A stretch of DNA of 64,000 bases, taken from assembly GCF_005144585.1 (NCBI RefSeq), contig NZ_SSMQ01000014.1, positions 124,001 through 188,000 of the forward strand. The letters are read 5' to 3'. The translations under genes were made by a program, and so were the position numbers. Of the stretch, positions 5,321 through 57,822 are shown piece by piece. The stretch's first letter is position 1; every line of letters begins with the position of its first letter. This stretch comes from Polyangium fumosum (lineage in GTDB: Bacteria > Myxococcota_A > Polyangia > Polyangiales > Polyangiaceae). Below the pieces are notes generated by a model. That model searched no databases. It was not told the origin of the DNA and saw only the letters and a list, made by a program, of their open reading frames with translations.

Positions 5321-6076
5321 TCAGAGCGCCGTGCCCGAGGACGCCTTCGCGAGCGCGCGGTCGACGGCGCGGGTGCTGAAGCCCACGAGGATCTGCCCGC
5401 GGATGTCGATGACGGGGATGCTGCCGCCGCGCTGGCCCGACTTTTCGAGCTTGTCGCTCATCTCCCGTGCGGCCTCCGGGCTCGCCTCCACATCCTTCTT
5501 CACGACGCGCACTCCCTTGGAGCGCAAATAATCTTCCGCCTGGTGGCAGGGTTTGCACCAGTCCGCGCCGTAGACGATCACCGTCAGATCCGAGGCCACG
5601 ACGGGCGGCTCGTTCGTCGGCTTCGCCCCTTGCGTCGCGCTCGGCGCGCCTGTCGGCGAGGGCGGCGGGGGAGGGGCGATCTTCGCGAGGTACGCGCTCC
5701 GCCGCTTCTCCACCTCTGACTCCCACGCGCGCCGCGTCATCGTCCGCGCCGCGTACGTCCCGTCGTCGCGCTTCTTCGTCAGATCGACGACGTAAAACAG
5801 GTGCTTCGTCCCGTCCTCGCGATCACTCACGACGACACGCACGAGCGATCGACCCTCCGCCGGCACGTCCGCGGGCTTGAGCTCGACGTGCATGTCGCCC
5901 TTCTCGTCGATCCACGTGAGCAGGAGGTTCGGCGTGTCCTCGCCGATCGCGAGCGCCGGCAGCTCCTCCGTCGTCGCGAGCGGCGTCGTGCCATCGTCTT
6001 CTTTCTTGCTCGAACACGCGGCCGCGTTTTGCAAGGTGAAGAGCGCGATGATTGCGAAGAGCGCCGCGCGATTCAC
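5321..6076 (-). CDS. Thioredoxin/glutaredoxin-like lipoprotein
   Basis: A 251-residue exported redox protein. GTG start with GGAGG upstream. The N-terminal hydrophobic segment ends at a cysteine (QNAAAC, C21; the lipobox is imperfect). Residues ~40-120 form a domain without a recognised family. A Pro-rich linker leads to a glutaredoxin/thioredoxin-like domain with the redox motif WCKPC in VIVYGADWCKPCHQAEDYL and a cis-proline context (GGSIPVIDIRGQILVGF). It probably handles thiol-disulphide exchange at the periplasmic face. The start overlaps the stop of the ABC-F gene (GTGA junction), so the two form an operon. Confidence 0.8.
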   Translation of the reverse strand: MNRAALFAIIALFTLQNAAACSSKKEDDGTTPLATTEELPALAIGEDTPNLLLTWIDEKGDMHVELKPADVPAEGRSLVRVVVSDREDGTKHLFYVVDLTKKRDDGTYAARTMTRRAWESEVEKRRSAYLAKIAPPPPPSPTGAPSATQGAKPTNEPPVVASDLTVIVYGADWCKPCHQAEDYLRSKGVRVVKKDVEASPEAAREMSDKLEKSGQRGGSIPVIDIRGQILVGFSTRAVDRALAKASSGTAL

Positions 6077-8085
6077 GCCGTCCTCCCCACGTCTTCAGCC
6101 GCGAGCTCCTCGCCGAGCGTCATCCACTCCGTCATCGCCGTGTCCACGCGCCGCGCCAGCGCTTGCTCCTCGGACACCATTTTCGCGAGTTTTTCCCAGT
6201 CCCCGCCCGGGTCCTGCTTCAGGCCCTCGCGCATCCGTCCGAGCTCGGCCTCACCCTTCGCGATCTCCTCTTCGAGCTCCTTCACGCGCTTGCGCTTGCG
6301 CTCGATCGCACGCGACGCGGCCTTCTCCGCCTCGAACGCGCGTTTCTTGTCGAGCGGCGACTCCGGCCCCTTCGCCTGCGTCACGACCGTCGACGCGCTC
6401 CGCTTCACCGCGCGTTTCGCGCGCCCGTCGTCCTGGGCGCGCGCGTCCTCGTCGGCGCCGTCGTCCTCCTCGAGCGGGGTGCTCGGCCGGGACAAACTCG
6501 CCTGGAAGTCACGGTATCCGCCGGGGAAGAGCTCGATCTTGCCGCCGTGGAACGCGCAGATCCGCGTGGTCACCGCGTCGAGGAAGCGGCGATCGTGCGA
6601 CACGAGCACGACCGATCCTTCGAAGCTCGCGAGCGCCTCCTCCAGGATCTCCGCCGCCGGGATGTCGAGGTGGTTCGTCGGCTCGTCGAGGAACAGCAGG
6701 TTGCGTGGTTCGAGCAGGAGCTTCGCCAGCGCGAGCCGGCTCCGCTCGCCCCCGGAAAAACCTTCCACCTTGCGCAGCGTGTCGTCGCCATAGAAGCGGA
6801 ACCGCGCGAGGTACTGCCGCGCTGCGTCCACGTTCATGTCGCCCCGCACGCTGCGGATCTCCTCGACCGCCGTCTTGTTCGGATCGAGCGAGCCGAGGTG
6901 CTGATCGAAATACCCCTCGCAGAGGTTCGTGCCGCGCTTGACCTCGCCTTGGTCCTCCTCGGCCCCGCGCCCCGCGAGGATCTTCAGCAGGGTCGACTTG
7001 CCACACCCGTTCGGGCCGAGGATGCCGATCCGCTCCCCGCGACGCAGGAGCAGTTCAAACCCCGAAAAGAGCTGCCGCCCGCCGCGCTCCGCCGCGAGCC
7101 CCCGCGCGTCGAGCACGATGTCTCCGCTGCGCGGCGCCTGCACGAAGCGGAAGGCCACCTTCTCCGCCCGCGCCCACACGTCCTCCGGCCGGTCGACGGT
7201 CTCCAGCTTGTCGAGCATCTTCCGCCGGCTCTGCGCCTGCTTCGTCTTTTGCCCCGCGATGTTCCGCCGAATGAACTCCTCGGTCTTCGCGACGAACGCC
7301 TCTTGCCGCTCGGCGAGCTCGCGCTCCCGCTCGAGATCCTCCTCGCGTGCCTCCGCGTACTGCGAGTACGCGAGCGGATACACGCGAAAACTCCGCCGCC
7401 CGAGCTCCATCGTGATCGGGCAGAGCGCGTCGAGGAACGCGCGATCGTGCGAGACCACGAGCATCGCGCTCGGCAGGGCCGCGAGGTGCCGCTCCAGCCA
7501 CGCGATCGTCTCGATGTCGAGGTGGTTCGTCGGCTCGTCGAGCAAGATCAGGTCCGGCGTGTTCGCGAGCGCCACGCCGAGGTGCAGCCGCCCGCGCTCC
7601 CCGCCCGACAGGCTCCCGAGCGCGCGGCCCATGTCCTCGTGCGAGAAGCCGAGGTGCGCGGCGAGCATCTCCACGCGCCGCTCCAGCGCATCCCCGCCCG
7701 CCAGGTGGTACTTGTCCGTCGCGTTCGCCAGCCGATCGAGCGCTTGTTTCGTCCCGCTCGCGGCCGCGTGCGAGGCCTCGTCGAGCTCCTTCCGCAACGA
7801 AAGCAGCTCGTCGAACCCCGACAGGAAGGCTTCGAGCACCGTGCCGACCTTCGGCAGTTCGTGGGATTGCCGGACGTACGCGACCCGCGTCCCTCGCTTG
7901 ATCACGACCGAGCCCGCGTCCGGGACGAGCTCCCGCGCGATCAGCCGCATCAGCGTGGACTTTCCCGCGCCGTTCGGCGCCACGAGCGCGGCCCGCTCCC
8001 CCGGGGCGAGCGAGAACGTCACCCCTTGAAAGAGCTGATTTGCGCCGTACCCGAAGCCGAGGCCGGAGACCTGAAGGACGGTCAT
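6073..8085 (-). CDS. ABC-F family ATPase (Uup/YheS-like)
   Basis: A 670-residue soluble protein with two fused ABC ATPase domains and no membrane segments, the hallmark of ABC-F proteins, which act on ribosomes. Domain 1: Walker A APNGAGKST, signature LSGGERGRL, Walker B LILLDEPTNHLD. Domain 2: GPNGCGKST, FSGGERSRLALAKLLL, LLFLDEPTNHLD. The linker between them is charged and helical. The C-terminal ~90 residues form a coiled coil (ERKRKRVKELEEEIAKGEAELGRM region), as in Uup. A second ATG six codons upstream is possible; I chose the one that begins MTVLQVSGLGFGYG. It is the first gene of a two-gene overlap with the redox lipoprotein. Confidence 0.9.
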   Translation of the reverse strand: MTVLQVSGLGFGYGANQLFQGVTFSLAPGERAALVAPNGAGKSTLMRLIARELVPDAGSVVIKRGTRVAYVRQSHELPKVGTVLEAFLSGFDELLSLRKELDEASHAAASGTKQALDRLANATDKYHLAGGDALERRVEMLAAHLGFSHEDMGRALGSLSGGERGRLHLGVALANTPDLILLDEPTNHLDIETIAWLERHLAALPSAMLVVSHDRAFLDALCPITMELGRRSFRVYPLAYSQYAEAREEDLERERELAERQEAFVAKTEEFIRRNIAGQKTKQAQSRRKMLDKLETVDRPEDVWARAEKVAFRFVQAPRSGDIVLDARGLAAERGGRQLFSGFELLLRRGERIGILGPNGCGKSTLLKILAGRGAEEDQGEVKRGTNLCEGYFDQHLGSLDPNKTAVEEIRSVRGDMNVDAARQYLARFRFYGDDTLRKVEGFSGGERSRLALAKLLLEPRNLLFLDEPTNHLDIPAAEILEEALASFEGSVVLVSHDRRFLDAVTTRICAFHGGKIELFPGGYRDFQASLSRPSTPLEEDDGADEDARAQDDGRAKRAVKRSASTVVTQAKGPESPLDKKRAFEAEKAASRAIERKRKRVKELEEEIAKGEAELGRMREGLKQDPGGDWEKLAKMVSEEQALARRVDTAMTEWMTLGEELAAEDVGRTA

Positions 8086-8189
8086 GGCCGGCAGTCTTAG
8101 CATGTAAGACAGGAGTCACCCGACATCCGGCCCCGGGGGACGCCGGAACCTCGCGCCATCCGTCCCGAACCTGGATAGGATGTGCCCCG

Positions 8190-10624: not shown

Positions 10625-11764
10625 TCAGAATCGCTTCGAGGGATCCTGGTCGAGCTTCTTCAGGTTGAGCTCGATGCGGCGGTTGCCCGGGTCGAGCTCC
10701 AGCGCCTGCTGCCAGAACTTGCGCGCGTCCTCGCGCTGGCCGTTTCGCAGCGCCGTGAAGCCCTGATCCATGAGCGAAGCGACCTCGCGCTCCTTGAGGC
10801 GCGCCGCAATCTCCTCGGGCGTCTCCTCGGGCGGCGGCGGAGGCGGCGGAGGCGGCGGAGGCGGCGGGGGCGGCGGCGGCAGCGGCGTGAGGTCGCGCGG
10901 CACCGGCGGCGCGTTGAGCGCGTCGAGGCGCATGCGCGCGTTCGTCGGGATCTGCGCCTTCTGCTGGAAGCCGGGGTCCGGCCCGAAGTCCCAGTCGTCC
11001 TTGCTGCCCTGCTGCTGCGTGATGCGGCCGGGCCGCACCGAAGGCCGCGGCGCCTCGTCGTCGGACGGGCCGAAACGCGCCTTCTCGTCGAGCTTGCGCA
11101 CGCCCTCCATCAGGATGTGCTGGTAGTCGCCGTTGATCGTGCGCTCGAAGTCCGGCGGGAACGGCGCCATGTTGAAGACGCCGTCCTCGACCGCGATCAT
11201 CTCATGCACCGCGTCCTCGCCGACCAGGTTGTTCCAGATGGCGTGCACGATGTCGCCGTTCTGGATGAGGATCACGCCCGAGAGTTGCCCGCGCGCGATG
11301 CGCAGCGCCGTCGTCTTGCGGCCGAGGCAGAGCATCTGGATGACGTCGACTGCGGACAGCTCGGAGAGGCTCCCGCCCAGGCCATCGGGCTTATCCATGG
11401 CCTGCAGGAGCGCCGCGCGCAGCTCGTGCAGGTCGAAGGGCTTGCGCAGCAGCTTGAGGCAACCGACGGCGTGCGCCTTGTCGCGGATCGTCGCGATGTC
11501 GAACGCGGTCATCACGATGGCCCGCGTGTCCGGCGTCTCTACCGCGGCCCAGCAGACGAGGTCCATGCCGCTCATGCCGGGCAGGTGGACGTCGGTCACC
11601 AGGATGTCGATCGGCGTCTCGCGCAGGATTTGGCGGCCCACCTCGGCGTTCTTCGCCAAGAGGACGTCGTACCGATGGTTGTCCTGATAAAGAAACCGAT
11701 GGAGGGCGAGGACGATCCCGTCCTCGTCGTCGACGATCAGCACTCTGTGGCGTCGTTGAGCCAT
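10625..11764 (-). CDS. Response regulator: REC, DUF4388-like (PATAN) and TPR
   Basis: 379 residues. The receiver domain (~5-125) has VDDED near the start, the phosphoacceptor D58 in ILVTDVHLPGMSG, and the lysine of LRKPFDLHE. A middle domain (~130-230, LSELSAVDVIQMLCLGRKTTALRI... GVILIQNGDIVHAIWNNLVGEDAV) matches the DUF4388/PATAN family often found downstream of receivers in myxobacteria. A polyproline run of about 17 residues joins it to a short TPR (MDQGFTALRNGQREDARKFWQQALELDPGNRRIEL). There is no DNA-binding domain, so output is probably by protein contact. It lies 7 bp after the histidine kinase gene, likely its cognate kinase. Confidence 0.88.
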   Translation of the reverse strand: MAQRRHRVLIVDDEDGIVLALHRFLYQDNHRYDVLLAKNAEVGRQILRETPIDILVTDVHLPGMSGMDLVCWAAVETPDTRAIVMTAFDIATIRDKAHAVGCLKLLRKPFDLHELRAALLQAMDKPDGLGGSLSELSAVDVIQMLCLGRKTTALRIARGQLSGVILIQNGDIVHAIWNNLVGEDAVHEMIAVEDGVFNMAPFPPDFERTINGDYQHILMEGVRKLDEKARFGPSDDEAPRPSVRPGRITQQQGSKDDWDFGPDPGFQQKAQIPTNARMRLDALNAPPVPRDLTPLPPPPPPPPPPPPPPPPPEETPEEIAARLKEREVASLMDQGFTALRNGQREDARKFWQQALELDPGNRRIELNLKKLDQDPSKRF

Positions 11765-11771
11765 GGCTGTT

Positions 11772-12797
11772 CTACCTGCCGGTCATGATGGGCAACGTGA
11801 TCGTGACGCACGTTCCCGAGACGTTTCCGCTCCGTCGACCGATCGCGATCGAGCCACCGTGGTCGGTCACGATTCGATAGCATATCGAGAGCCCGAGCCC
11901 CGTGCCCGTGGGTTTGGTCGTGAAGAACGAGTCGAAGACTTTGTCGACGATCTCCTCGGGGATCCCGCTGCCCGTGTCCTCCACGTGCAGGACCATCCGG
12001 TCGTCCTCGATGCCCGCGTGGACCCTCAGCTCTCCGCCCTCCGGCATCGCGTCGGCCGCGTTGATGAAGAGGTTCAAGAGGACCTGCTGGAGCTGGTCCT
12101 GATCGATCCAGAGCGGGCGAAGCAGGCCGTACCGGGTGCTGAAGTGGATGTTGTTGAGCCGCCCTTCGGCCGCACCGCGCGCGCGGTTCAGGATGGTCGG
12201 GAGATCGGCCTTGGTGCGCCGCGGCGGCCTGTGGCGCACGAACCCGAGGAGCTGGCCGAGCATGTTGTTCAGCCGGTCGATCTCGCGGTTCACCGCGTGC
12301 AGCGAGTCGCCAAGCCCGGCCTCGGCGGCCTCGTGCTCGATCGACTGGATCGTCGCTTTGATCGCGGCGAGCGGGTTTCCGATCTCGTGCGCGACCATCG
12401 CGCACGCCTTGCCGACCTCGGAGAGCCGCTCGAGCTGCCTGCGCTCGGCCTGGAAGCGCTCGGTCTCCGTGACGTCGTGCATGGAGATGATCGTGCCGAG
12501 CCGGTTCGAACGGAAGAGGCGATAGCCGACGATGGTCTTGTTGCCCGCTTCGTCGAAGGCCTCGACCGTGAGCTCTTTCATGCGTGGCGGGCCGTCGCGC
12601 CCGCGCTCGCTTTCCACGTGCTCGAAGATCTTGTTGATAAGCGGGGCACCCCCCGCGCGCCGCGTGATCAGGTCGTCGGCGACGCGGTTCGTCACGACGA
12701 CCTCGCCCCCTTCGTCCACGATCACGACACCCACCCCGATCTCGTCGAGCAGGGTGGTTCCCGATGAAAACGGTACGTTGGGACGGTTCTTCCTCAT
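11772..12797 (-). CDS. PAS-containing soluble histidine kinase
   Basis: 341 residues with no membrane segment. An N-terminal PAS-like domain (~15-110, GVGVVIVDEGGEVVVTNRVAD) precedes a HisKA domain with the phosphoacceptor in MVAHEIGNPLAAIKATIQ. The HATPase_c domain has the N box (LLNLFINAADAM), G1 (VEDTGSGIP), F box (FDSFFTTK) and G2 (GTGLGLSIC). It is a NtrB-like cytoplasmic sensor kinase that probably phosphorylates the adjacent receiver protein. It lies in a minus-strand run with the envelope and roadblock genes upstream; the 79-bp gap to that gene may contain a separate promoter. Confidence 0.92.
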   Translation of the reverse strand: MRKNRPNVPFSSGTTLLDEIGVGVVIVDEGGEVVVTNRVADDLITRRAGGAPLINKIFEHVESERGRDGPPRMKELTVEAFDEAGNKTIVGYRLFRSNRLGTIISMHDVTETERFQAERRQLERLSEVGKACAMVAHEIGNPLAAIKATIQSIEHEAAEAGLGDSLHAVNREIDRLNNMLGQLLGFVRHRPPRRTKADLPTILNRARGAAEGRLNNIHFSTRYGLLRPLWIDQDQLQQVLLNLFINAADAMPEGGELRVHAGIEDDRMVLHVEDTGSGIPEEIVDKVFDSFFTTKPTGTGLGLSICYRIVTDHGGSIAIGRRSGNVSGTCVTITLPIMTGR

Positions 12798-12876
12798 GAT
12801 TTGGAGCGGGGCGGCGCAGCGTAGGCGCAGCGATCGTCCATGCTACGCCGCTCGCGCCACCCCTGGGGCCTCAACG

Positions 12877-14634
12877 TCAACCGTAGCCAAAGAGCTTGGT
12901 GACCGTCTTCACGACCTTCTCCTCGGCCGGATCCGGCGCCTCGTCGCGGAAGCCGAGCACGCTGAGCGCCAGCGTCTCGTCCGACCACCGCAGCCATCGC
13001 GTTCGCATGACCACGTTGTTCACGTCGAGGATGTGGATCACATGAGGCTCGGCGATCGGCAGGAGGTTCCTCACCCGATCACTCACCTCGGACACGACCG
13101 AAGCCGCAGCCGCGAGCTCGTTCTGGTACCGGACCTCGCCGGCCGCCGCGATCACGAGACCACGCGTATCCGCCAGCACGACCGCACGCCCGCCCGTGTC
13201 CTCGCGGAGCAGCGAGCTCATGCCTTCTTCGAGCAGCGTCTCCAGGCGTTTGTCCGTGTTGCGGAAGCTGATCGGACCCGTGCTGATCGGCGCCTGGCTC
13301 GGCGGAGCCTTCTCCATCGAGCGCGCCGCCGTCATGGCGAAGGCCTGCGCCTCGAGGTCGATGATGCGGCGCCGCAGGTTCTTCGCTTCGATCGCGATCG
13401 CCTCGAGTTCCTCGACCCGCCTGCGCAGATCGCTGTTCTCGTTGGCGTAGTAATCGAGCTCCGCGGCCTTCTGCTCCAGCGTGCGCACCCGGAGCGAGAG
13501 CTCGTTGTTCTTCTTGTTGAGCGCCTCGGCTTCCTTGCGCAGCTTGTCGGCCTCGGCCGCGCTCGCGCCGCCGCCGCTCGCCGCGGCGGGCGCGCTGGTA
13601 GCGGCAGCCTTGAGCTTCGCCTCGAGGTCCTGCACCTTCGCGCGCGCGGAGCCGAGCTCCATGCCGAGCTTCGCCGCCTCGTTCGCGGCTTGCTGCAGCG
13701 TGCCGATCTGCGCCTGGAGCTGCTGCACCTTGGTCTTCTCGGCCGCGAGATCCTGACCGACCTTGCCCGCGTCGCCCGTGGACTTCTGCGCCGCCGCGAG
13801 CTTCTGCTCGAGGTCGCGCACCTTGGTCTTCTCGGCCTGGATGTCCTGCGCGAGCTTGCTCGTGCCTTCGGCCGTCTTCTGCAGCGCGGCGACCTGCGTC
13901 TGGAGCTGCTGCACCTTGGCCTTCTCGGTCGCGAGCTCTGCGGAGAGCTTGTCCGAGCCGCCTTGCCGCGTCTTGAGCTGCGCGTTCTCCGCCGTGAGCT
14001 GCTCGGCCCGCTGCGCCGACGCGCGGAGCTGGTCCGCTTGCGTTCGCGCCTCGCGGAGCTGCGCCTGCGCGGCTTGCACCTGCGCGTTCGATTCGGCGAG
14101 TCGACGCTCGAGATCTTGCCGCGCGCCGTCGTCCCCGCGCCCCGCTTGCGCCTGGGCCGTCGCGGCTTGCAGGCGTTGCTCGAGGTCGTGGGCGCGTGCG
14201 CGCTCGGCTTGCAAGGCCTGGGCAGCTTGATCGGCCGCGGCCACGCGTTGCCGGAGCTCGGCGTTCTCCTGCCGGAGCTGGGCCTCCGCGGGCGAAGGAC
14301 CGCTCGCAGCGGCCCGCGCGCGGTTGACCTCCGCCTGGAGCTGGTTCACCTGCTCGCGGAGCTTTTGCGCTTCACCCTGGGCCTTCTGCGCTGCCTCGGC
14401 GCGCGCACGCTCCGCGGAGTCGGAGGCCGAGCGCGAGAGGTCCGCGTTCTGCTGCTGCAGGGCCGCGACCTGGGCCTCGGCTTGCTGCCGTGCCTCTTTT
14501 TCGGCCTGGACGAGGCTCGGATCCGCGGCGGCGCCGTTCTTCGAAGGGAACGCCCTGCTCACGAGCAGACCGGCCCCGAAAAACAGGCCGGCTCCTGCCG
14601 CGGAAGAAAGCCATATCGATTGGATCAGGTCCAT
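12877..14634 (-). CDS. Membrane-anchored coiled-coil protein with C-terminal roadblock/LC7-like domain
   Basis: 585 residues. One N-terminal membrane segment (IWLSSAAGAGLFFGAGLLVS) is followed by about 400 residues of Ala/Gln/Glu-rich coiled coil. The C-terminal ~110 residues (LETLLEEGMSSLLRED...AVVLADTRGLVIAAAGE...ILDVNNVVMRTRWLRW) resemble a roadblock/LC7 domain, the fold of MglB. This suggests a cytoplasmic rod that holds a GTPase-interacting platform at the membrane. It is 19 bp downstream of the OmpA-like gene and in the same run as a stand-alone roadblock gene. The roadblock call is by pattern recognition and should be confirmed by profile search. Confidence 0.78.
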   Translation of the reverse strand: MDLIQSIWLSSAAGAGLFFGAGLLVSRAFPSKNGAAADPSLVQAEKEARQQAEAQVAALQQQNADLSRSASDSAERARAEAAQKAQGEAQKLREQVNQLQAEVNRARAAASGPSPAEAQLRQENAELRQRVAAADQAAQALQAERARAHDLEQRLQAATAQAQAGRGDDGARQDLERRLAESNAQVQAAQAQLREARTQADQLRASAQRAEQLTAENAQLKTRQGGSDKLSAELATEKAKVQQLQTQVAALQKTAEGTSKLAQDIQAEKTKVRDLEQKLAAAQKSTGDAGKVGQDLAAEKTKVQQLQAQIGTLQQAANEAAKLGMELGSARAKVQDLEAKLKAAATSAPAAASGGGASAAEADKLRKEAEALNKKNNELSLRVRTLEQKAAELDYYANENSDLRRRVEELEAIAIEAKNLRRRIIDLEAQAFAMTAARSMEKAPPSQAPISTGPISFRNTDKRLETLLEEGMSSLLREDTGGRAVVLADTRGLVIAAAGEVRYQNELAAAASVVSEVSDRVRNLLPIAEPHVIHILDVNNVVMRTRWLRWSDETLALSVLGFRDEAPDPAEEKVVKTVTKLFGYG

Positions 14635-14653
14635 TCCTTCCTCAAGTCCTCGG

Positions 14654-15382
14654 CTACCGCCACTCGATCTCGACGCGCCGGTTTCGGGCCCAGGCCGTCG
14701 GGGTGTTGGTGGAATCCGCGGGCTTCATGCCGCCCACGGCCTCGGTCGTGATCCTGGAGTGCGGAATGCCGTTCGCGTGGAAGAAGTTCTCCACCGCCGC
14801 GGCGCGCTTGCGGCTGAGCTCCAGGTTGTGCTCGCGCGATCCGAGTTGATCCGAATGCCCCCGGAGATGGATGCGCAGGCTCGGGTTCGCCTTCAGCTGC
14901 TTGAGGACCTCGTCGAGCGTGCTCTTGGCCGACAACGTCAAGAGATTCGAATCGATCTCGAAGAGGACGTCGGAGATTCCCGCGGGTTTGTCGCCAGAAG
15001 CCACCGCCGGGGGCGGTTTCGGAGCCGGCGGGGGCTCGGGCTCCGACGTGGGGGCCGGCGGGGTCGCCGCGGCCACCGAGACCACCGGCAGCGCGGAGGT
15101 CGTCGCCGTGGGCTCGGGCGCCGTGTTTTGCGGCTCGGGCGTAGGCGTTGGTTTGGGAGGCGGCGCGACGGCGACGCTCGGGCCAGGCGTAGCCGTAGGC
15201 CTTTGCGCCGAGGCCTGCGCCGAGGTGGTCGACCCCGGCCGAGCCCCGGTCACCTGGGCCTGCTTCGCCTGCTCCTCGGCGTACTCAGGCGCGAGCTTGA
15301 GGTTGACCAGCCCGAGGTCCGCGAGACCGAGGAGCAACAGCCCACCAAAGGCCAGCCGAGCGTTTCCAGTCGAGTTAGCCAT
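14654..15382 (-). CDS. OmpA-like peptidoglycan-binding protein
   Basis: 242 residues. An N-terminal hydrophobic anchor (ARLAFGGLLLLGLADLGLVNL) precedes a long Pro/Thr/Ala-rich linker. The C-terminal OmpA/MotB domain (~135-242) has VLFEIDSNLLTLSAKSTLDEV, IHLRGHSDQLGSREHNLELS (the TD/HSD-type ligand region), LSRKRAAAVENFF and RNRRVEIEW. It should tether the inner membrane to peptidoglycan. It lies between a roadblock gene (16 bp upstream) and the coiled-coil/roadblock gene, which suggests that this cluster builds an envelope-linked complex. Confidence 0.9.
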   Translation of the reverse strand: MANSTGNARLAFGGLLLLGLADLGLVNLKLAPEYAEEQAKQAQVTGARPGSTTSAQASAQRPTATPGPSVAVAPPPKPTPTPEPQNTAPEPTATTSALPVVSVAAATPPAPTSEPEPPPAPKPPPAVASGDKPAGISDVLFEIDSNLLTLSAKSTLDEVLKQLKANPSLRIHLRGHSDQLGSREHNLELSRKRAAAVENFFHANGIPHSRITTEAVGGMKPADSTNTPTAWARNRRVEIEWR

Positions 15383-15398
15383 GACAATCAGGCCGCCG

Positions 15399-15773
15399 TC
15401 ATACGATCTTGGACAGCTCGGTCACGCGCCGGCGAATATCGAGGAACACGAGGCCGAGCTTCGCGTCGGGCGTCGTGAGCACGATGAGCAGCGCTTCCGC
15501 GCCGACCGCGTTCAGGATGACGTAGCCTTGACGGCCACGCACGTACGTCTGCTCCATGGCGCCACCCATGAGCTCGTGGGCGATACGCTCACCGACACCG
15601 AGGAGCGCGGCGGCCATACCGGACACCAACTCTTCGTCGATCTCGTTCGGGAGCAGCGACGCGATGATGAAGCCGTCGGTGCTCACCATGGCCGACCCGA
15701 TGATGTCGGGCGATACCGAACGAAGATTGCGAAGAATTTCCTGGATTTTTTCGACTCGACTTCCAGCTGCCAC
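15399..15773 (-). CDS. Roadblock/LC7 domain protein (MglB-like)
   Basis: 124 residues, GTG start with AGGAGGAG 4 bases upstream. The whole protein is one roadblock/LC7 domain: VEKIQEILRNLRSVSPDIIGSAMVSTDGFIIASLLP, then GMAAALLGVGERIAHELMGG and GYVILNAVGAEALLIVLTTPDAKLGLVFLDIR. The family includes MglB, the GTPase-activating partner of the polarity GTPase MglA. No MglA-like GTPase gene is present in this window. It starts a closely spaced run with the OmpA-like and coiled-coil genes. Confidence 0.9.
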   Translation of the reverse strand: MAAGSRVEKIQEILRNLRSVSPDIIGSAMVSTDGFIIASLLPNEIDEELVSGMAAALLGVGERIAHELMGGAMEQTYVRGRQGYVILNAVGAEALLIVLTTPDAKLGLVFLDIRRRVTELSKIV

Positions 15774-15962
15774 GTCTCCTCCTGTGCGGGCAAGCCGAGC
15801 CCGAGTTCGTACTCGAGCTCATAATCAACCCGGGCGCCGCGTCCGGGACATGTTCTGCCCTCTCGCACTGCTCTCCGGCGTCCCTCGGGCCTCCGTCTAC
15901 GCCGAGGCCCCTCGGAAAACCGGCGCGTGGGCGAGGCCGCCACCTCTACGTGGCGGCATCGT

Positions 15963-16439
15963 CTAGCCCAATTCGACCGTCACCTGGCACGTGCCTTCGC
16001 CATTGGCGCCGCACTTCGTCTCGTACGCCTTCGGCTTCTTCTTGATCAGGACCTCGGTGATCCCGGCGACGAAGCCGACCTCGAAGTGGCAAATCCGCTT
16101 CGAGATGCTCGCCATGCCCGCGCACGTGATGCACTCGTCCAGGTCCACCACGAGAAGCTTGTCGTCAAGCTGGCGAGGGATGAGAATGCCGATACGTGAA
16201 TCGCGCACGAACTGGACGACCTCCTTGAGGTATTCGTCCGTGCTCGGCTTGTACAGCATCTGGCCGGCTTCCTTGCCGAGCTCCCTACCGCCGTTCTGGA
16301 AAACGACCGCCGCCCCGCGCCCCAGCACCTCCTCGACGTACCCGGCCGAGAAGTGACGGAACACGCGAAAGACCAACAACGGAATGTCGTTTCCCAGAAT
16401 CGGCCTGTGGGTCTGAGCGACTTCTTGGATGAGACCCAT
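15963..16439 (-). CDS. V4R (4-vinyl reductase) domain protein
   Basis: 158 residues that form a single V4R-type small-molecule-binding domain: RHFSAGYVEEVLGRGAAVVFQNGGRELG, then DECITCAGM, KRICHFEVGFVAGITEVLIKKK and TKCGANGEGTCQV. The spaced cysteines are typical of V4R domains, which bind hydrocarbons or metals and often act as sensors. ATG 16437-16439 with a GAGGTG site upstream. A 189-bp gap separates it from the roadblock gene, so it may be first in the same transcript or have its own promoter. As a ligand sensor it is a plausible input for the downstream cluster; that link is inference. Confidence 0.82.
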   Translation of the reverse strand: MGLIQEVAQTHRPILGNDIPLLVFRVFRHFSAGYVEEVLGRGAAVVFQNGGRELGKEAGQMLYKPSTDEYLKEVVQFVRDSRIGILIPRQLDDKLLVVDLDECITCAGMASISKRICHFEVGFVAGITEVLIKKKPKAYETKCGANGEGTCQVTVELG

Positions 16440-17063: not shown

Positions 17064-19178
17064 TCAAGCGGCGACCGAAGGTACGGACTGGAACGTGGCC
17101 GCCAGGACGTCAGGCGCAGGTAGGCCGACCGACGATAGTCCACGCCGCGCCGCCGGGAGCCATGACGCCGGATCCCCCACGATGCCCCGCGCCATCGACT
17201 CCAAGAGCCGACGCCGCAAGAGATCCTTGCGCCGGTAGAAGCTCGCCCCGTGCTCGGCGTTCGCATGCGGGACGTAACTCGCCAAGGACACGTGCGTCTT
17301 CTCGTGCAGCATCAGATCCACGAGCGCGCCGAACGCCGCCGGATCGTCCTGCTGAAGCACGGACACGAGCAGCGCGCGCACCCGCGCCGACGCGAGGTTG
17401 ACGCTGATGCCGCTGCCGTCCGTGTGCGCCATCTCGTCCGGGCCGTAGAGATCCTGGTGCACCGAGATCGGCGAGGGCGTGAGCTCCGCCGCGATCGAGA
17501 TCGCCGCGTCGATCCCCTCGAGCACCGTCATCGCCGCCGCGAGCGCGTCGACGCCCGGCACCTCCTTCGCCGTCGCGAGCAACGTCTCCCGATCGATGCG
17601 CTGCATCGCGAGCGCGCCGATGCGCCGTCCCCGGCGGTCCTGCGAGCCCGCCGCCGCAGCCGCCGCGCTCGTCGCGACGAGCCGCCGCCAGAGCGCGTCC
17701 GCGAGCGGATCGTCGAGCGAGACGTACGTGCGTCCCGGCAGCAGCGGCTCTCCCATCGGTCGAAGCGTGCCCGCACGGTAAGCGCCAAGCAGATGGCGCA
17801 AGGTGACGATGCGCGGGTGCTGTTCGTGCTCGTCGTCGATCGTGATCACGCGGATGGCCGGCGTGTCGAGGAGCGCATCCGCGAACCGCACGACCTCCTC
17901 GGGCGCGGCCACGGTGGGGCGCTTTTGCGGCCGTCGCTCGGACTCCGGCGGCGCGGCGCTCGACGGCGTCATCAACGGCCAGGGCTTCGACGAGCGTGTT
18001 GCCTCCGTGAGCTCCTCGGGCGCGCTCGCTGCCGCAGGTTGCGTGGGCTGGCCCGCGAGCGCGGCGCAAAGCAGCCGATCGAGGACCGAGGAGAGCCTGT
18101 GATCCACGGCGCGGAGCAGCTCGCGATCGTAGAGCGCGTCATGCAAGACGAAGCGTTCGAACGCCGCGATGAGCGCCGACTCGATGGCCGCCGAGGCGTG
18201 CGCGGCCACCGCGGATCGACCCTTGTTGAGCGGCACCTCGGCAGGCAGCTCGACGACGATGCCGAAGCCCGCCGACACGATCGCCCGCGCGAGGTCGCGG
18301 TGGAGCGAGAGCTCGGGCGCGGTGAAGAGATCCTGACGGACCGCGACGAGCAAGCCGCGTTGCGTGATCGTGACGTGCGGCAGAGCGCCGTCGCCGCGGC
18401 CGACCCAGATCGAGATCTCGCCGAGCGGGCCGGTGATCGGACCCCCGACGTGCGCGCGCGCGACGCGGCGCATGCGCGTGCGGGCGACGTTGATGAGCAC
18501 ACCGTCGACGTAGATCCGAGCGACGGAGGGATCGACGAACGACGCGGCCGCGGCGACCTCGGAGGCGAGGACCGAGCGGCTGATCGGCTCGTCGAGCAGG
18601 AGCCGCACCGACGTGCCGGTCCACCCCTCGACGTGCGGCAGCGGCCGGAGAGACCAGGCGAAATCGGCATACGGCGGGCCCTTGCCGAGTGGCTCGACGC
18701 GCAGGAGGTGTCCCTCGGTGCGCGTGCGCGTCTTCACTTCGAGCCGCGGCGCGATCTCGAGCGCGCTGAAGAAGCCGATGCCGTGCTCGCCGATCGCGAG
18801 CTCCTCGCCCTCCTTGCCGCTGCGGAACGGGACGAGGAGATCGCCGAGGACCTCGTCGGCCGTCATGCCGCGCCCGCGATCGGTCACGATGATCTCGGTG
18901 CCGCCGAGCCCCGACTGCACGTCGATCGCAGCCCCGCGCGGTGAGGCGTCGAGCGCGTTCTGGACGAGCTCGCGCAAGGGCGCGATGCGCGAGGCGCTCT
19001 GCGCGTAGATCGTACGCGAGAGGATCCGCTCGGCGAGATCGGGGACCGTCGCCTCTCTGCGGCAAGCCTCCACGATGCCCGGGCGGGCCGCGCGGCTCGC
19101 CGCGAGGTAGGCCGCCGAGCGGCCATGCACGCGCACGAGGAGCAGGTCCGAGAGACGGCCAGCGTAGACTTCGGTCAT
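17064..19178 (-). CDS. Hsp90-like (GHKL) ATPase with C-terminal HExxH motif
   Basis: 704 residues from ATG 19176-19178 (GGGGGGAA upstream; an extension to 19223 lacks support). The N-terminal GHKL ATPase domain has the N box with E70/N74 (RELVQNALDAS), D100 in VTDRGRGM, and GEHGIGF (130-136), as in Hsp90/MutL/MORC proteins. A middle Hsp90-like region follows to about residue 350, then a variable linker. Near the C-terminus LVDLMLHEKTHVSL carries a zinc-peptidase-type HExxH (625-629), with H643 in AEHGASFY as a possible third ligand. No Hsp90 dimerisation domain is evident. It is 41 bp downstream of a second GHKL gene. The peptidase function is inferred from the motif only. Confidence 0.8.
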   Translation of the reverse strand: MTEVYAGRLSDLLLVRVHGRSAAYLAASRAARPGIVEACRREATVPDLAERILSRTIYAQSASRIAPLRELVQNALDASPRGAAIDVQSGLGGTEIIVTDRGRGMTADEVLGDLLVPFRSGKEGEELAIGEHGIGFFSALEIAPRLEVKTRTRTEGHLLRVEPLGKGPPYADFAWSLRPLPHVEGWTGTSVRLLLDEPISRSVLASEVAAAASFVDPSVARIYVDGVLINVARTRMRRVARAHVGGPITGPLGEISIWVGRGDGALPHVTITQRGLLVAVRQDLFTAPELSLHRDLARAIVSAGFGIVVELPAEVPLNKGRSAVAAHASAAIESALIAAFERFVLHDALYDRELLRAVDHRLSSVLDRLLCAALAGQPTQPAAASAPEELTEATRSSKPWPLMTPSSAAPPESERRPQKRPTVAAPEEVVRFADALLDTPAIRVITIDDEHEQHPRIVTLRHLLGAYRAGTLRPMGEPLLPGRTYVSLDDPLADALWRRLVATSAAAAAAGSQDRRGRRIGALAMQRIDRETLLATAKEVPGVDALAAAMTVLEGIDAAISIAAELTPSPISVHQDLYGPDEMAHTDGSGISVNLASARVRALLVSVLQQDDPAAFGALVDLMLHEKTHVSLASYVPHANAEHGASFYRRKDLLRRRLLESMARGIVGDPASWLPAARRGLSSVGLPAPDVLAATFQSVPSVAA

Positions 19179-19219
19179 CGGTTCCCCCCTGATTTCCCCA
19201 CCGCCCGAGGCTCGCTCGA

Positions 19220-20938
19220 TCAAGCCGTTCCCGTGACCCCGATGGGCTCGCTGACGATGAGCTCCCGCTCGAGATCCGGTTCACGCATGCCCGTCGCGCG
19301 ATCGAACGCGACGCGCAGCGCGTACTGCTCCGACCAGCCCACGCGCCGCGCGACCGCAGGCGCGTCCTCGCGCACGAGCAGCGCGTGACGCGTCCCGAGG
19401 CAAGGCAGCGGGCCCGGCGCGTTCTTGCGGCCGCGCGCGAGCGCCACGGGGACGGCCTCGGGCCGCTCGGATCGACGGGCGAGCTCCACGATCCCAGGCA
19501 GATCCGGGCGGCGACGCGCGAGGCTCGACAGGCTCTCGGCGTGATCGATCTCGAGCTCGCGCGCGAGCAGCTCTCGCTCGCCGGGGATGAAGCCTTGCCA
19601 CTCGCGCTCGGCCCAGAAGCTCTCGGGGACGAAGAGCCGGCTCTCCACGTTGCTGCCGAGGAAGCCGATCAGCGGCTCGCGTCGCTCCGGCCCGACGAGG
19701 TACCGATCGGGGCCGAGCAAGGCGCGCGCGAGCTCGGGCGCGACCTCGTTCCACGCCGCGGATTGAAGCATCAGCGCGCTGATCTGCGCGGCGACCTCCG
19801 CCAGGCGATCGGCCGCCTTGCGGCTCGTCCCCGGCGCGCGGGCGAGGTCCACAAGCCTGCGGTAGAACGACGCGGCCGTCGCGCGGAAGTTGCGGCAAGG
19901 CTTGAGCGCGTCGCGCCCCTCGGTGAGCTCCACCGCGGAGGGAAAATCGATCAGCGCGAGCTCCGGGATCGCGAGGCAGCCTTCGACCTTCACGCCGGCG
20001 TGGTAGGTCGCGGCGCAGATCCCGGTCACGAGCGCGCGGCCGCCCACGTAGAAGCGCGCGACGCGGCTCGGATCCTCGGGCGAGAGCGCATCCGTGAAGT
20101 GCGAGCCTCCCGCGAGGTACCGGCCGTCGTTCAGCGGCGCGCTGTCGAGGTTCACGATCGCGCGCTCTTTCGGGAAGAAGTGCAGCGCGTCGCGCAGGTA
20201 CGCGCGGAGCGGCTCGGCCTCGATGAGGGAGGAGCGCACCTGCACACGCGTCCCGGCGCGCGGCGTGAGCTTGCGGATCGCGCAGACGAGCGACGAGGGC
20301 TCGGGGCCGTCGGCGAGCACCGAGAGCGACCAGCCCGAGGTCCCGTCGCCCGTCTCCACCTCGATCGACAGGCTGGTCGGATCGGGCAGCCCGAGGCCGA
20401 TGACCGAGAAGAAGCCCACGCCGAAGCGCCCGAGGTCCACGCCGGCGCGCTTGTCGGTCGCGAACGGCACGAGCAGCCGCGACAGGATCGTCCGCAGATC
20501 CATGCCGATCCCGTCGTCGGTCACGGTCACCACGCCTTCGCGCACCCGCACATCCACGCGGGCGGGGTGCTCGGGCGTCGCGTCGATCGCGTTCAGCACG
20601 AGCTCGACCACGGGCCGCAGCGGGTGGCCGAACTGCCGGCCCACCTCCTCATCGAGGATCTTGAGCAGGTAGGCCCGATCCATCGGTGGGCGGGCCGGTG
20701 CTCCGGCGCCCGAGACGAGCGCCACGAGCGCGGGCCGGTAGAGCCCGATGGCCACGAGCTCGTGCAACGAGCCCAGGAAGCAGAGCTCGCCTTCCCGTAC
20801 CCCTCCGCGGGCGATTCCGCCGGCGCGGGCTGCGGCGAGGTCGATGTGCGTCCTCGTGAACGGCCCTACGTGCGCCGATTGCTCGGCCGGAGGCGTCCCG
20901 AGGGGCGAAGAGTCCGGAGCGCTGCGTGCCGTCGCCAT
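19220..20938 (-). CDS. Hsp90-like (GHKL) ATPase
   Basis: 572 residues. A divergent N-terminal ~85 residues precede the GHKL ATPase domain: N box RPVVELVLNAIDATPEH (E112, N116), G1 VTDDGIGM (D141/D142) and G2 GRFGVGFFSVIGLG (170-183). A phosphate-loop-like VPFATDKR lies between them, at the same place as VPFRSGKE in the neighbouring ATPase, so the two proteins share architecture and are likely ancient duplicates. The C-terminal ~200 residues are unrecognised and lack the HExxH motif of the neighbour. It is first in a two-gene unit divergent from a VWA lipoprotein. Role unknown; GHKL pairs of this kind are sometimes part of conflict or stress systems. Confidence 0.8.
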   Translation of the reverse strand: MATARSAPDSSPLGTPPAEQSAHVGPFTRTHIDLAAARAGGIARGGVREGELCFLGSLHELVAIGLYRPALVALVSGAGAPARPPMDRAYLLKILDEEVGRQFGHPLRPVVELVLNAIDATPEHPARVDVRVREGVVTVTDDGIGMDLRTILSRLLVPFATDKRAGVDLGRFGVGFFSVIGLGLPDPTSLSIEVETGDGTSGWSLSVLADGPEPSSLVCAIRKLTPRAGTRVQVRSSLIEAEPLRAYLRDALHFFPKERAIVNLDSAPLNDGRYLAGGSHFTDALSPEDPSRVARFYVGGRALVTGICAATYHAGVKVEGCLAIPELALIDFPSAVELTEGRDALKPCRNFRATAASFYRRLVDLARAPGTSRKAADRLAEVAAQISALMLQSAAWNEVAPELARALLGPDRYLVGPERREPLIGFLGSNVESRLFVPESFWAEREWQGFIPGERELLARELEIDHAESLSSLARRRPDLPGIVELARRSERPEAVPVALARGRKNAPGPLPCLGTRHALLVREDAPAVARRVGWSEQYALRVAFDRATGMREPDLERELIVSEPIGVTGTA

Positions 20939-21132: not shown

Positions 21133-22512
21133 ATGGGGCGCGTTCTGCGGTGGCTCGGCGTGAGCCTGGGGCTTTTCGTTTCGATTGGAATTGGGCTCGG
21201 GGGAGGCTGCGCGGCGGGAGGCAGCAACCGTCCTGGAAGCGGAGGGGACGGCGGCGAGGGGGGCTCGGGAGGATCGGGCAACCAGGGCCCCGTCGGACCT
21301 GGAGGCGGCGGCGTGGGCGGATTCGGCGGCGGCGTGGGCGGCGGGGGCCCGGCTTGCGCGAAATTCACGGCGGAGGCCCAGCAAGCGCCCGCGGCCATGC
21401 TCACCGTGCTCGACGCGAGCGCCAGCATGAACAAATCGTCCAAGTGGGGGACGGCGCAGCTCGCGATCAAATCGGCGATCGACAAGGACGTCTTCGACAC
21501 GATGTCCCTGGGCCTCACGGTCTTCCCGGCGAGCTTCATCAACCCGCCGCCCTGCATCTGCTCCTATGTCGGGCTCGATCAGGCGACATGCAATGCCCTG
21601 CTCGCGCCGGGCGTCTCGTGCGGCATCTCCGTTCTCCCGCAGGTGCCCGTGGCGCCGGCCGGGAAAGACAAGACAAACGCCCCGACCGGCGTACGCCGCC
21701 AGATGTACGATTGGCTCGTCGGCCATCCGCCGCTCAGCAACGGCGACGACGGATCGCCGATTTACGACGCTCTCAAGGCTGGCTACGAATCCTTGAAAAC
21801 CGAGAACATCGCCCGGCGTATGCTCGTCCTCATCACGGACGGCGGTTTCTCGTGCACGTCCGTGGCGAGCCCGGCCCGGCCCGGGTACGCCGACGATTAC
21901 AGTTGCCCCGACTGGGAATATCCGGACAGCGTGAATGCCCTCATCGCGGGCGCCCGGAACGACCCGAACAAGCCCATTTTCACGTTCATCGTGGGCGTTC
22001 CGGGGTCGAACAGCACGGGCGTCGACGTCGACGGGTTCGCCACCCCGCCTTACAACATGCTCCTCGCGCTCTCGACGTACGCCGTGAGCGGCTCGCCGGA
22101 CACCGTGGATCCGAGCTGCGACAAGGGCGCCGCCTTCACGCAAGGCGCGCCTGCCCCTGCCAAACCTTGCCATATCGATCTCTCGAACGGCGCGCAGTTC
22201 AACGCCGACGCGTTGGCCAAGGCGATCGCCGACGTCCGCGGCAAGGCGCTCGGCTGCGTCTACGACCTGCCGCCCCCGCCGCCCGGCGAGCAGATCGACA
22301 AGACCCAGGTCAACGTGAACCTCACGCTCGACGGCATGCTGCAAAACCTGAAGAAGCGCACGGATCCGCTGGATCTCTGCCCGCAGGACGGCTGCTGGGA
22401 CTACACCCCGGACGGCAAGGTCCAGCTCCTGGGGAAGGCCTGCGAGGGCCTCGGCGCGGCCACCGACGTGAAGGTCGACATCCAGGTCGGCTGCGAGACC
22501 ATCCTCAAATAG
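21133..22512 (+). CDS. VWA-domain lipoprotein with glycine-rich linker
   Basis: 459 residues, ATG with GAGGAGGAAA upstream. A signal peptide ends at a cysteine in LGGGCAAGG, then a ~50-residue Gly/Ser-rich stalk typical of myxobacterial surface lipoproteins. A von Willebrand factor A domain follows, with the MIDAS-type DASASMNKS and a later LVLITDGGFSC. Numerous cysteines (PPCICSYVGLDQATC, CPQDGCWDY, GCETIL) suggest a disulphide-stabilised exported fold. Probable role is surface adhesion or protein binding; the ligand is unknown. It is divergent from the GHKL pair with a 194-bp shared upstream region. Confidence 0.82.
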   Translation: MGRVLRWLGVSLGLFVSIGIGLGGGCAAGGSNRPGSGGDGGEGGSGGSGNQGPVGPGGGGVGGFGGGVGGGGPACAKFTAEAQQAPAAMLTVLDASASMNKSSKWGTAQLAIKSAIDKDVFDTMSLGLTVFPASFINPPPCICSYVGLDQATCNALLAPGVSCGISVLPQVPVAPAGKDKTNAPTGVRRQMYDWLVGHPPLSNGDDGSPIYDALKAGYESLKTENIARRMLVLITDGGFSCTSVASPARPGYADDYSCPDWEYPDSVNALIAGARNDPNKPIFTFIVGVPGSNSTGVDVDGFATPPYNMLLALSTYAVSGSPDTVDPSCDKGAAFTQGAPAPAKPCHIDLSNGAQFNADALAKAIADVRGKALGCVYDLPPPPPGEQIDKTQVNVNLTLDGMLQNLKKRTDPLDLCPQDGCWDYTPDGKVQLLGKACEGLGAATDVKVDIQVGCETILK

Positions 22513-55538: not shown

Positions 55539-56516
55539 ATGTGGATGAGTCTTCGCAATTTCGCGTTCGTGCGGAACATCCAAGACCTATCGAGGGAGCT
55601 GGGCTGCGAGCGCGCACAGCTCGAAGAGTACATTTCGTCCCGGCAGCGTGAATTCTACAAGGAGATGCGGATCCCGAAGAAGGGACGACGCCGCCGAGAA
55701 TTCCGCACCGTTTACAAGCCCTGCCGGGAGCTGGCCGTCCTTCAGAAGAACATTGCAACCCTGCTTCAGCGGAACCCCTTGCCCGAATACGTTCAGGGCT
55801 TCGTTTCCGATCGTTCGATTTACAAAAATGCCAAGATCCATATCGGTCAAAAGATCCTTCTGCACGCCGATATACATGAGTTTTTCGAGTCGATCACGCT
55901 GGAGCGCGTGCGGGATGCATTTGAGACCTGTGGAAGCAATAGGGAGGTCGCGACGTTGCTGGCGAAGCTTTGCACCCTCGATGGCTTCCTCCCGCAAGGG
56001 TCGAGCGCAAGCCCCGTCTTGGCCAACCTGGTCTGCCGGCATCTCGACACTGATATCAACGCCCTTGCGATCAGTTACGGCTGCAGATACAGCCGTTATG
56101 CCGACGACATCACCCTTTCGGGCGATCGCGTACCACCCGCGGAGAGTGTCGAGAACCTGCTGAAACGGCACGCCTTCGAGCTGCGACCGGGCTCGTGCCG
56201 TACGCAGCGGCGCGGGCACGGGCAATACGTCACCGGCCTGTCCGTCGAGGATGCCGTGCCCCGGATCCCGCGCCGAATGAAGCGGCGTCTCCGCTTGGTC
56301 CTCCGGTTGGCAAGGAGCGCAATGCAGCACGCAGATTTGTTGCTGTCGGAGACGAAAATCGATGGATGGCTAGCCTTCTTTCATTCCGTCGAGCCCAACC
56401 TGGCGTCCAAGCTCTCCGCGGAGTGGGATCCAATTCGAGCACGGCTCAATAACCGACACACAGGGTCTCCTGATGACCCCTCGGAGGAAGTCACGGAAGA
56501 GGAGCCTTCCGACTGA
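55539..56516 (+). CDS. Retron-type reverse transcriptase
   Basis: 325 residues (ATG 55539; ATG 55545 is possible; weak ribosome binding site). Retron hallmarks: NAKIH (97-101, the NAxxH motif), first catalytic Asp in LLHADIHEFFESI (D111), PQGSSASPVLANL (152-164), YADD (187-190), and QYVTGLSVED (VTG motif, 231-233). The C-terminus (WLAFFHSVEPNLASKLSAEW) is the normal retron RT end; no effector domain is fused. It would make msDNA from a partner RNA. Downstream on the same strand there is no gene; its 3' end overlaps the convergent protease gene by 26 bp. GC content is lower than in the flanks, consistent with transfer. Confidence 0.92.
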   Translation: MWMSLRNFAFVRNIQDLSRELGCERAQLEEYISSRQREFYKEMRIPKKGRRRREFRTVYKPCRELAVLQKNIATLLQRNPLPEYVQGFVSDRSIYKNAKIHIGQKILLHADIHEFFESITLERVRDAFETCGSNREVATLLAKLCTLDGFLPQGSSASPVLANLVCRHLDTDINALAISYGCRYSRYADDITLSGDRVPPAESVENLLKRHAFELRPGSCRTQRRGHGQYVTGLSVEDAVPRIPRRMKRRLRLVLRLARSAMQHADLLLSETKIDGWLAFFHSVEPNLASKLSAEWDPIRARLNNRHTGSPDDPSEEVTEEEPSD

Positions 56517-57813
56517 AGAACCTGTTCGTGTCGAGGCGCCGAACCAGGCGCACCTTGTCCCGGATGCTCTCGAATTCGCGGCTATCGCGCGGGTCCGCGG
56601 CATCGACGCGCGCTTTTACGATCTCGCAGACGTAATCGGTGACCCAATGGCACGCCTCGGCGCGCTCGACGAGCGACACCTCGTGCTCCCGGAGTGCCGG
56701 CGCGTCCTTGCGGATTTGGCGCTTCATTCCGATTTGGCTTGCCATTGCTGAGACAACACCGGGAAGCGCCTTCGTTCGGGTGCCCGAGGTCGCATGGATG
56801 AAGACGATGCGCGAGGCATGACGTCTCAGCCTATCCGCCAGCACACCCTCCAGGAGCTGTTCGAACACGAGCTGTTCGGGCTTCTCCCCGAAGAATTTCC
56901 TTGGCGCACAGCAAACATACGCCTCGAAGAGTTGCCCCTTGAGAATTTCGACGAAGCGGGCGCGCACGTCGCGATCGTCGTCCCGGTACCGAAAACCCCG
57001 CCGACGCAGCCGATCTTCGACGCCAGGAATCTCGAGGAGGGCTTGATCGTGCAACAGATCTTCCCGCGCATTTTCGAGCGCGTTGGTTAGGCGCGAGGGA
57101 TCTTCCAAGAGTACTACGCCCACAGCGATAGCACCGGGACCGCCATCGAAGCCCGCCTCTCCGAGAAAGATATGAATCGTATCGGGACGTGCGGCGGCGC
57201 TCGCCAGTGGAGCCGGCGTGAGCAGTTCGGGGCAGGCGGTTCGGAGAGCCTCCACCCGGGTTGCGAAGGCGGTTGCCGTATGCCGACCAGTTGAGGGATC
57301 ACTGGGCCGGATGGCTTGAATCATCGCGACGACCTTCCCGCGCGCCTCATCGAGTAGAGGGCCGCCGCTATACCCTGGGGAGATTTCCTGAGATTGGAGC
57401 TGTATACGGTATTCGTCCCGGAGCCTACCGAGAGCGTTGACGTCCGCCCACAAGCCGTTGCCTTCGCCCTCGGGGAAACCATAACCGCACAATTTACGGT
57501 TCTCTATATCGGTCGATTCGCCGATCTCCACCGGTCGGACGCCGGCGGGGAGGGGAACATCGATGCGCAAGAATGCGAGATCCTCCGCATCGCTCGCACG
57601 CCAGAACTCGGGCACGACGAGGGCTTCGACGAGCTCCTTAGACTCCGTCGCCAGGAATCGAACGCGAACCCGTCTACCGGGCGCGGCACCTGCCTCCTCG
57701 ACGACGTGAGCGCTTGTCGCTACGAGGCTCTGCGAAACGACGAAGCCGGTGCCGATCACCTCTACGCCCTTGAGGATCTTGACGAGCGCGGACGTCAGGT
57801 CGTTACGGTTCAT
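56491..57813 (-). CDS. Trypsin-like protease fused to a DUF3800-like domain
   Basis: 440 residues. Residues ~1-200 are a trypsin-like serine protease without a signal peptide: H36 in LVATSAHVVEEAG, D78 in AEDLAFLRID, S149 in ISPGYSGGPLLDE. Residues ~212-415 match DUF3800, an RNase H-like fold: an N-terminal IFLGEAGFDGG (the usual DESG is altered to GEAG), RDVRARFVEILKGQLFEAYV, LVFEQLLEGVLADRL, and a final CHWVTDYVCEIVKARV in place of LQxAD. An intracellular protease joined to a putative nuclease-like effector resembles bacterial conflict proteins. It starts 9 bp after the metallophosphoesterase stop, so the two form an operon convergent with the retron RT. Confidence 0.78.
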   Translation of the reverse strand: MNRNDLTSALVKILKGVEVIGTGFVVSQSLVATSAHVVEEAGAAPGRRVRVRFLATESKELVEALVVPEFWRASDAEDLAFLRIDVPLPAGVRPVEIGESTDIENRKLCGYGFPEGEGNGLWADVNALGRLRDEYRIQLQSQEISPGYSGGPLLDEARGKVVAMIQAIRPSDPSTGRHTATAFATRVEALRTACPELLTPAPLASAAARPDTIHIFLGEAGFDGGPGAIAVGVVLLEDPSRLTNALENAREDLLHDQALLEIPGVEDRLRRRGFRYRDDDRDVRARFVEILKGQLFEAYVCCAPRKFFGEKPEQLVFEQLLEGVLADRLRRHASRIVFIHATSGTRTKALPGVVSAMASQIGMKRQIRKDAPALREHEVSLVERAEACHWVTDYVCEIVKARVDAADPRDSREFESIRDKVRLVRRLDTNRFFSRKAPLP

Positions 57814-57822
57814 GGCGACAGA

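Follow-up and report, generated by a model that had tools for sequence, protein, structure and literature searches.

ATP-dependent proteolysis is known from AAA+ partners, as in Clp, Lon and FtsH. Among ATPases of the GHKL type, MutL-alpha (MLH1-PMS2) is described as pairing two GHKL subunits in a heterodimer with endonuclease activity (PMC12733681). Here we analyze a stretch of 64,000 nucleotides from the myxobacterium Polyangium fumosum (the window; contig NZ_SSMQ01000014.1, positions 124,001 to 188,000), in which two neighboring minus-strand genes, B (19220..20938, 572 aa) and A (17064..19178, 704 aa from its likely ATG), both encode Hsp90-like ATPases of the GHKL type. What appears to be new, judging from sequence, is the joining of an Hsp90-like GHKL module to a zincin-like domain in A, together with a dedicated partner, and the pair may encode an undescribed ATP-controlled protein-cutting clamp. 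We tentatively favor A and B as the two subunits of an ATP-driven Hsp90-like clamp, with A carrying a zinc-dependent peptidase arm. Somewhat more speculatively, a heterodimeric GHKL clamp would couple an ATP cycle of the Hsp90 type to a zinc protease within the same machine, with B as the protease-less partner, in a form fixed in one myxobacterial clade. The pair would probably act in the cytosol, in a clade-specific form of protein processing or quality control.

Two tandem Hsp90-like ATPase genes

The window lies on contig C55 in a genome of 12.98 Mb. Transcription runs through B first and then A, with an intergenic gap of 41 bases (19179..19219). The model of B follows its open reading frame and an HATPase_c match above the Pfam cut-off. 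The frame of A as called opens with a TTG and encodes 719 aa, and an ATG lies 15 codons further in, at 19178. In the untrimmed alignment this ATG recurs at the equivalent site, within one column, in 13 of the 13 orthologue rows that reach the start, and A therefore probably begins there rather than at the TTG. The rows of the working alignment (A1) were begun at ATG by choice, so that support for this start comes from the untrimmed one; one A1 row (L073) is a contig-broken fragment holding the C-terminal part only. Both genes are under purifying selection, with a ratio of nonsynonymous to synonymous substitution rates (dN/dS) of 0.09-0.14 over whole genes in all six within-genus pairs tested (three for A, three for B). 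The closest named relatives of A are in Polyangium strains, at 96-97% identity.

A consists of an Hsp90-like N and middle ATPase part (residues 1-345), a linker, an alpha/beta segment (about 425-530) and a zincin-like C-terminal domain (about 531-704); the linker (about 380-425) is fast-evolving in within-genus comparison. B has a GHKL ATPase N domain with a probable middle domain (about 50-400), followed by a C-terminal region that spans about 400-550 and lacks HExxH. A first-pass annotation of the window had described two tandem genes here with complete GHKL motifs and a shared VPFxxxK, and closer inspection bears it out. The motifs are ELVQNALDA (E70, N74), DRGRGM (D100) and GEHGIGF in A, and ELVLNAIDA (E112, N116), DDGIGM (D141) and GRFGVGF in B. 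Their key residues (N box, DxGxG and lid) are invariant in eight divergent rows for A and 13 rows for B. The shared VPFxxxK reads LLVPFRSGK in A and LLVPFATDK in B. An arginine-bearing loop in the middle region, which we take to be the counterpart of the Hsp90 catalytic loop, is likewise invariant in the rows checked (PLNKGR in A, ELTEGR in B), and Pfam HATPase models score above cut-off in both proteins.

For A, the predicted structure extends the likeness beyond the ATPase fold. In the AlphaFold2 model of A (mean predicted local distance difference test score, pLDDT, 75.5), residues 1-360 align with TRAP1 82-446 (Z 17.4, root-mean-square deviation (rmsd) 4.6, 265 residues aligned), and according to this model an Hsp90-type middle domain follows the N domain. 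A PDB sequence search with the A profile has TRAP1 and HtpG on top (best E 9.2e-7). Whole-length structure alignments have an rmsd of about 18-20 and are uninformative as to a C-terminal dimerization domain of the Hsp90 kind. The model of B is of low confidence (mean pLDDT 61.4, residues 292-347 under 50) and matches the ATPase domains of type II topoisomerase, Hsp90 and GyrB at Z of about 12-13, while the PDB sequence search with the B profile returned GyrB only, at E 0.08. A middle domain of Hsp90 type is less certain in B than in A.

The idea that A and B are diverged duplicates, also raised at first pass, suits the N domains and, less well, the middle domains. Profile alignment links A 27-234 to the corresponding part of B at 98% probability and the middle domains more weakly (31-42%), and finds no similarity between the C-terminal regions (0.3%). 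In a tree of Polyangiales Hsp90-like proteins and HtpG (built from five A rows, five B rows, 18 of the 24 relatives described below, the window genome's own paralogue and three HtpG rows), A and B form one clade (99/97); the program warns of long branches meeting, and the clade is possibly a long-branch join. Trees holding A or B alone place neither with support, and a tree that included MutL joined MutL to B and was redone without it. An ancient tandem duplication of the ATPase part appears likely. A peptidase-like domain in B was also considered and was rejected, since the C-terminal regions of the two proteins share no profile similarity. As a lead only, the strand and helix order of B 495-550 resembles that of A 570-633 in the models.

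A candidate peptidase site in the C-terminal domain of A

The zincin-like domain of A (17067..17591, residues 530-704, minus strand like the features that follow) contains an HEKTH motif at residues 625-629 (17292..17306), with H625 and H629 as putative zinc ligands and E626 as a catalytic-type glutamate. A putative third ligand, H643, lies in the EHG at residues 642-644 (17247..17255). Positions were computed from the ATG, and with this start the H625/H629/H643 numbering given at first pass is correct, as is the remark that HExxH with a later histidine occurs in A and not in B. Lack of conservation among homologues was one of two findings that, at first pass, had been named as refuting this reading, and it is not what we see: HEK(T/A)H and AEHG, and with them H625, E626, H629 and H643, stay constant in all 14 orthologue rows, including those of Sorangium, Minicystis and Byssovorax at 57-63% identity. 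G644 is present in all 14 rows and F647 is invariant, which gives the HExxH and third histidine (HGxxF) arrangement of SprT-like and WLM proteins. An invariant block of 15 residues, HQDLYGPDEMAHTDG (A 574-588, 17415..17459, 14 of 14 rows), stands before HEKTH and is longer than the HEKTH stretch. HE..H by itself arises in 622 of 20000 shuffles of A (about 3%), and HE..H followed after 8-25 residues by HG..[FYW] in 1 of 20000.

The order of secondary structure in the model agrees with such an assignment. The other refuting finding named at first pass was a HEKTH loop unable to chelate zinc; the model of A (secondary structure by DSSP) puts HEKTH in a helix (613-633), with short strands and a helix before it, and H643 directly precedes a further helix (645-664). 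Profile comparison gives a weak zincin match. Against 21 SprT-like rows from relatives, cut around their HE..H motif, the domain scored 31.9 in hhalign at 48% probability, while 200 column shuffles scored no higher than 23.5 and the reversed profile 10.7; the 21 rows came from 23 SprT loci, leaving out L098 (below cut-off) and L104 (taken as YgjP-like). Pfam matches are weak: of 11 domain members, three hit WLM, with a best E of 0.044, and one hits SprT-like (E 0.019), and the window member scores 14.3 bits against the WLM cut-off of 26, reaching no zincin Pfam cut-off. A zincin of the SprT/Wss1 type is the most likely identity of this domain, mainly through motif and spacing. DNA-crosslink repair, by analogy with Wss1 and Spartan, was considered and set aside, as A and B are charge-balanced and the zincin region is acidic (13 K+R, 19 D+E).

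Several observations weigh against a peptidase. With the seven motif residues masked, the hhalign score drops to 17.5 and the probability to 1%, and therefore the zincin match rests mainly on the motif. The strongest single Pfam match of any domain member is to a non-zincin family, DUF6187 (one of 11, E 0.0023). K627, inside HEKTH, is charged and invariant, whereas HExxH peptidases usually have uncharged residues at such positions. Residues 636-641, just before H643, have pLDDT under 50, and any zinc geometry read from the model would be uncertain there. A PDB sequence search with the zincin-domain profile returned no zincin, only three chains at E of about 2, all of one helicase II (Ku) subunit. 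Structure searches with the whole A model had no zincin among the matches listed, which excludes nothing, as the lists were filled by GHKL proteins. The charged K627, the motif-driven SprT similarity and the DUF6187 preference are also what one would cite for the main rival, that the C-terminal domain has a zincin-like fold with a structural or regulatory zinc, or is otherwise not a peptidase, and that the pair is a specialized Hsp90-like chaperone whose arms only bind clients. The absence of HExxH from B fits as well, as a partner arm lacking the peptidase motif is evidently tolerated. Purely structural zinc sites, however, seldom need the glutamate, and E626 is as invariant as the three histidines across all 14 rows. 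We consider this rival less likely than a peptidase arm.

Pairing, mechanism and genomic setting

Among 108 Polyangiaceae genomes, 14 have A. Each of these also has B, and a fifteenth genome has a contig-end fragment of B. In this survey of co-occurrence, as proposed at first pass, the two genes are adjacent on one strand in 13 of the 14 carriers and at contig ends in the remaining one (G485). All six genomes of Polyangium (genus g1) have A, and all six of Sorangium (g31) have B; among the latter, one holds a contig-end fragment with no A found and one has A and B broken at contig ends. The family counts come from searches of the 108-genome set, and the genus counts were completed by searches within each genus. 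A profile of the A C-terminal domain (A3) run on a 377-genome sample of the phylum gave eight matches. Six are in Polyangiaceae, and the other two are stray, one at E 0.005 in a frame interrupted by a stop and one at E 0.008 in a frame of 54 residues. Three carriers of A (G116, G130, G133) are absent from these matches and were presumably not drawn into the sample. The A3 profile was run within the phylum and on viral contigs, and the all-genome contig scan used A itself. The carriers are large-genome soil myxobacteria of the Polyangium/Sorangium group.

Outside Polyangium the two genes are more tightly joined. At seven of seven intact junctions the 41-base gap is replaced by a four-base ATGA, in which the stop of B overlaps the start of A, and several junctions have a GGAGG-like site upstream of it. 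Since A starts within the stop of B, coupled translation of B and A is suggested. This strictness bears on a further alternative, in which each protein forms its own homodimer, A as an Hsp90-like protease and B as an Hsp90-like chaperone, and the two are expressed from a common operon without forming a complex. HtpG is a homodimer, A and B are strongly diverged with dissimilar C-terminal regions, and A could indeed homodimerize instead of pairing with B, a possibility that also counts against the clamp we favor. Strict co-occurrence and the overlap at all seven intact junctions nevertheless favor a fixed partnership, and we consider separate homodimers improbable.

In the two-subunit clamp that we prefer, ATP binding would dimerize A and B through their N domains. 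Clamp closure and hydrolysis would then deliver a client to the zinc site of A, or open that site, and B would contribute the other ATPase together with a C-terminal docking arm unlike that of A. Such a layout would be that of MutL-alpha, with two unequal GHKL subunits of which one bears the hydrolase, a peptidase taking the place of the endonuclease and the N and middle parts being Hsp90-like.

On one flank of the pair lie BrkB/YihY, DoxX and GroEL/GroES genes, and on the other V4R, Roadblock, OmpA and histidine kinase genes. Three further Polyangium strains (L065-L067, with the DoxX match missing in L067) have the flanks in this order, and other genera have it in part: the BrkB/YihY gene is shared with three Sorangium loci (L068, L070, L072), and the ABC-ATPase gene of window 6073-8103 recurs on the downstream side of A in L070, L071 and L073. 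No flanking gene is common to all genera compared.

ATPase domains of the pair also match models of defense proteins, A those of TmtA (E 2.8e-9) and REase_II, and B those of REase_II and MzaB. All of these matches are confined to the ATPase part, and the best TmtA stretch covers model positions 72-158 of 1486, short of a full-length match. Plasmid and phage collections gave no match to A itself, and viral contigs gave none to its C-terminal domain (B was not searched in either). The first-pass annotation had offered a chaperone/protease or a conflict system; an ATP-coupled chaperone/protease fits best, and a mobile conflict system is unlikely because of clade-wide presence, ordinary chromosomal context and purifying selection. 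A role in phage defense or another kind of conflict, with an Hsp90-like sensor that releases a protease, for which the defense-model matches and the resemblance of phage rIIA proteins to the A model might be invoked, is highly improbable given a pair whole or contig-broken in six of six Polyangium and six of six Sorangium genomes, housekeeping and signaling neighbors, selection on both genes, matches that end at the ATPase, and no sign of A in the mobile-element collections.

Other parts of the window deserve brief mention. Divergent from B, a gene at 21133-22512 encodes a secreted-type protein with a DxSxS like that of von Willebrand A domains (by eye) and no Pfam match at E<=0.001; it is also divergent in Minicystis (L071). 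Window 10625-16439 encodes, in one direction, a response regulator with DUF4388, a histidine kinase, a coiled-coil protein (by eye), OmpA, Roadblock/LC7 and V4R proteins, in an order kept in three other Polyangium strains and resembling a signaling or polarity cluster. At 55539-59241, a retron-like reverse transcriptase, best matched by the PADLOC model RT_VIII (E 4.7e-82), adjoins a convergent gene for a 440-aa protein with a trypsin-like peptidase and a DUF3800_VII-type domain, followed by a metallophosphoesterase-like gene. The third-position G+C of these three genes is 0.69-0.73, below that of most called genes of the window, and the locus looks like a retron defense locus with an unusual protease-DUF3800 protein. 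An Rfam scan of the window at gathering level reported only a tRNA.

Comparison with known systems

The first-pass annotation knew of no named system with this architecture, and we found none either: the profile libraries used name neither the pair nor the A C-terminal domain above cut-offs, and searches covering open-licence PubMed Central papers listed none recognizable as describing such an Hsp90-like/zincin pair. Outside the A and B orthologues, the closest N-domain relatives found by search are sacsin-type or small Hsp90-like GHKL proteins of Polyangiales. The best NCBIfam model for A is P_loop_sacsin, at 35.2 bits, under the cut-off of 50. We read 24 of these relatives, part of a longer listing, and none has a C-terminal HExxH (two, L025 and L050, are cut by contig ends); one has HEETH upstream of its ATPase domain. 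These 24 loci (L014-L034, L049, L050, L052) encode single Hsp90-like proteins across Polyangiales, with frames mostly of about 530-710 aa and a sacsin/HtpG-like ATPase, and the 10 that were scanned have no Pfam match beyond the ATPase/sacsin region.

With Hsp90, HtpG and TRAP1, both A and B share the Bergerat ATPase with N box, DxGxG and GxxGxG, and the N and middle parts of A align to TRAP1. The C-terminal arms appear to differ. Neither protein matches the HSP90 model PF00183 at E<=1 in the Pfam scan, and the window genome (G000) has a separate true HtpG, on contig C33, as its sole PF00183 match. With the SprT-like and WLM minigluzincins (Wss1, Spartan), A shares HExxH followed after about 13 residues by HGxxF, and also an HExxH helix that has strands and one helix ahead of it and another helix behind; it differs in that the window member is under the Pfam cut-off and that the domain ends an Hsp90-like protein. 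Phage rIIA proteins are among the top matches of the A model in the viral library; they are phage-encoded, and their partner rIIB is not a GHKL ATPase.

MutL-alpha offers a parallel in design. Like its subunits, A and B are two GHKL proteins, which would form a heterodimer with a predicted hydrolase activity; in MutL-alpha the active site is located on PMS2. The differences are that MutL-alpha is a DNA clamp with a nuclease, whereas A and B have a putative peptidase and an acidic zincin region. Among MutL models the best score of A is 22.3 bits against the mutl cut-off of 180, and the Pfam scan reported no nuclease domain. If the clamp exists as proposed, it would solve ATP-dependent proteolysis in a way different from that of the AAA+ systems, through a clamp of Hsp90 type that has a peptidase of its own, and it would become testable whether closure of a GHKL clamp gates proteolysis, as is thought for DNA cutting by MutL-alpha.

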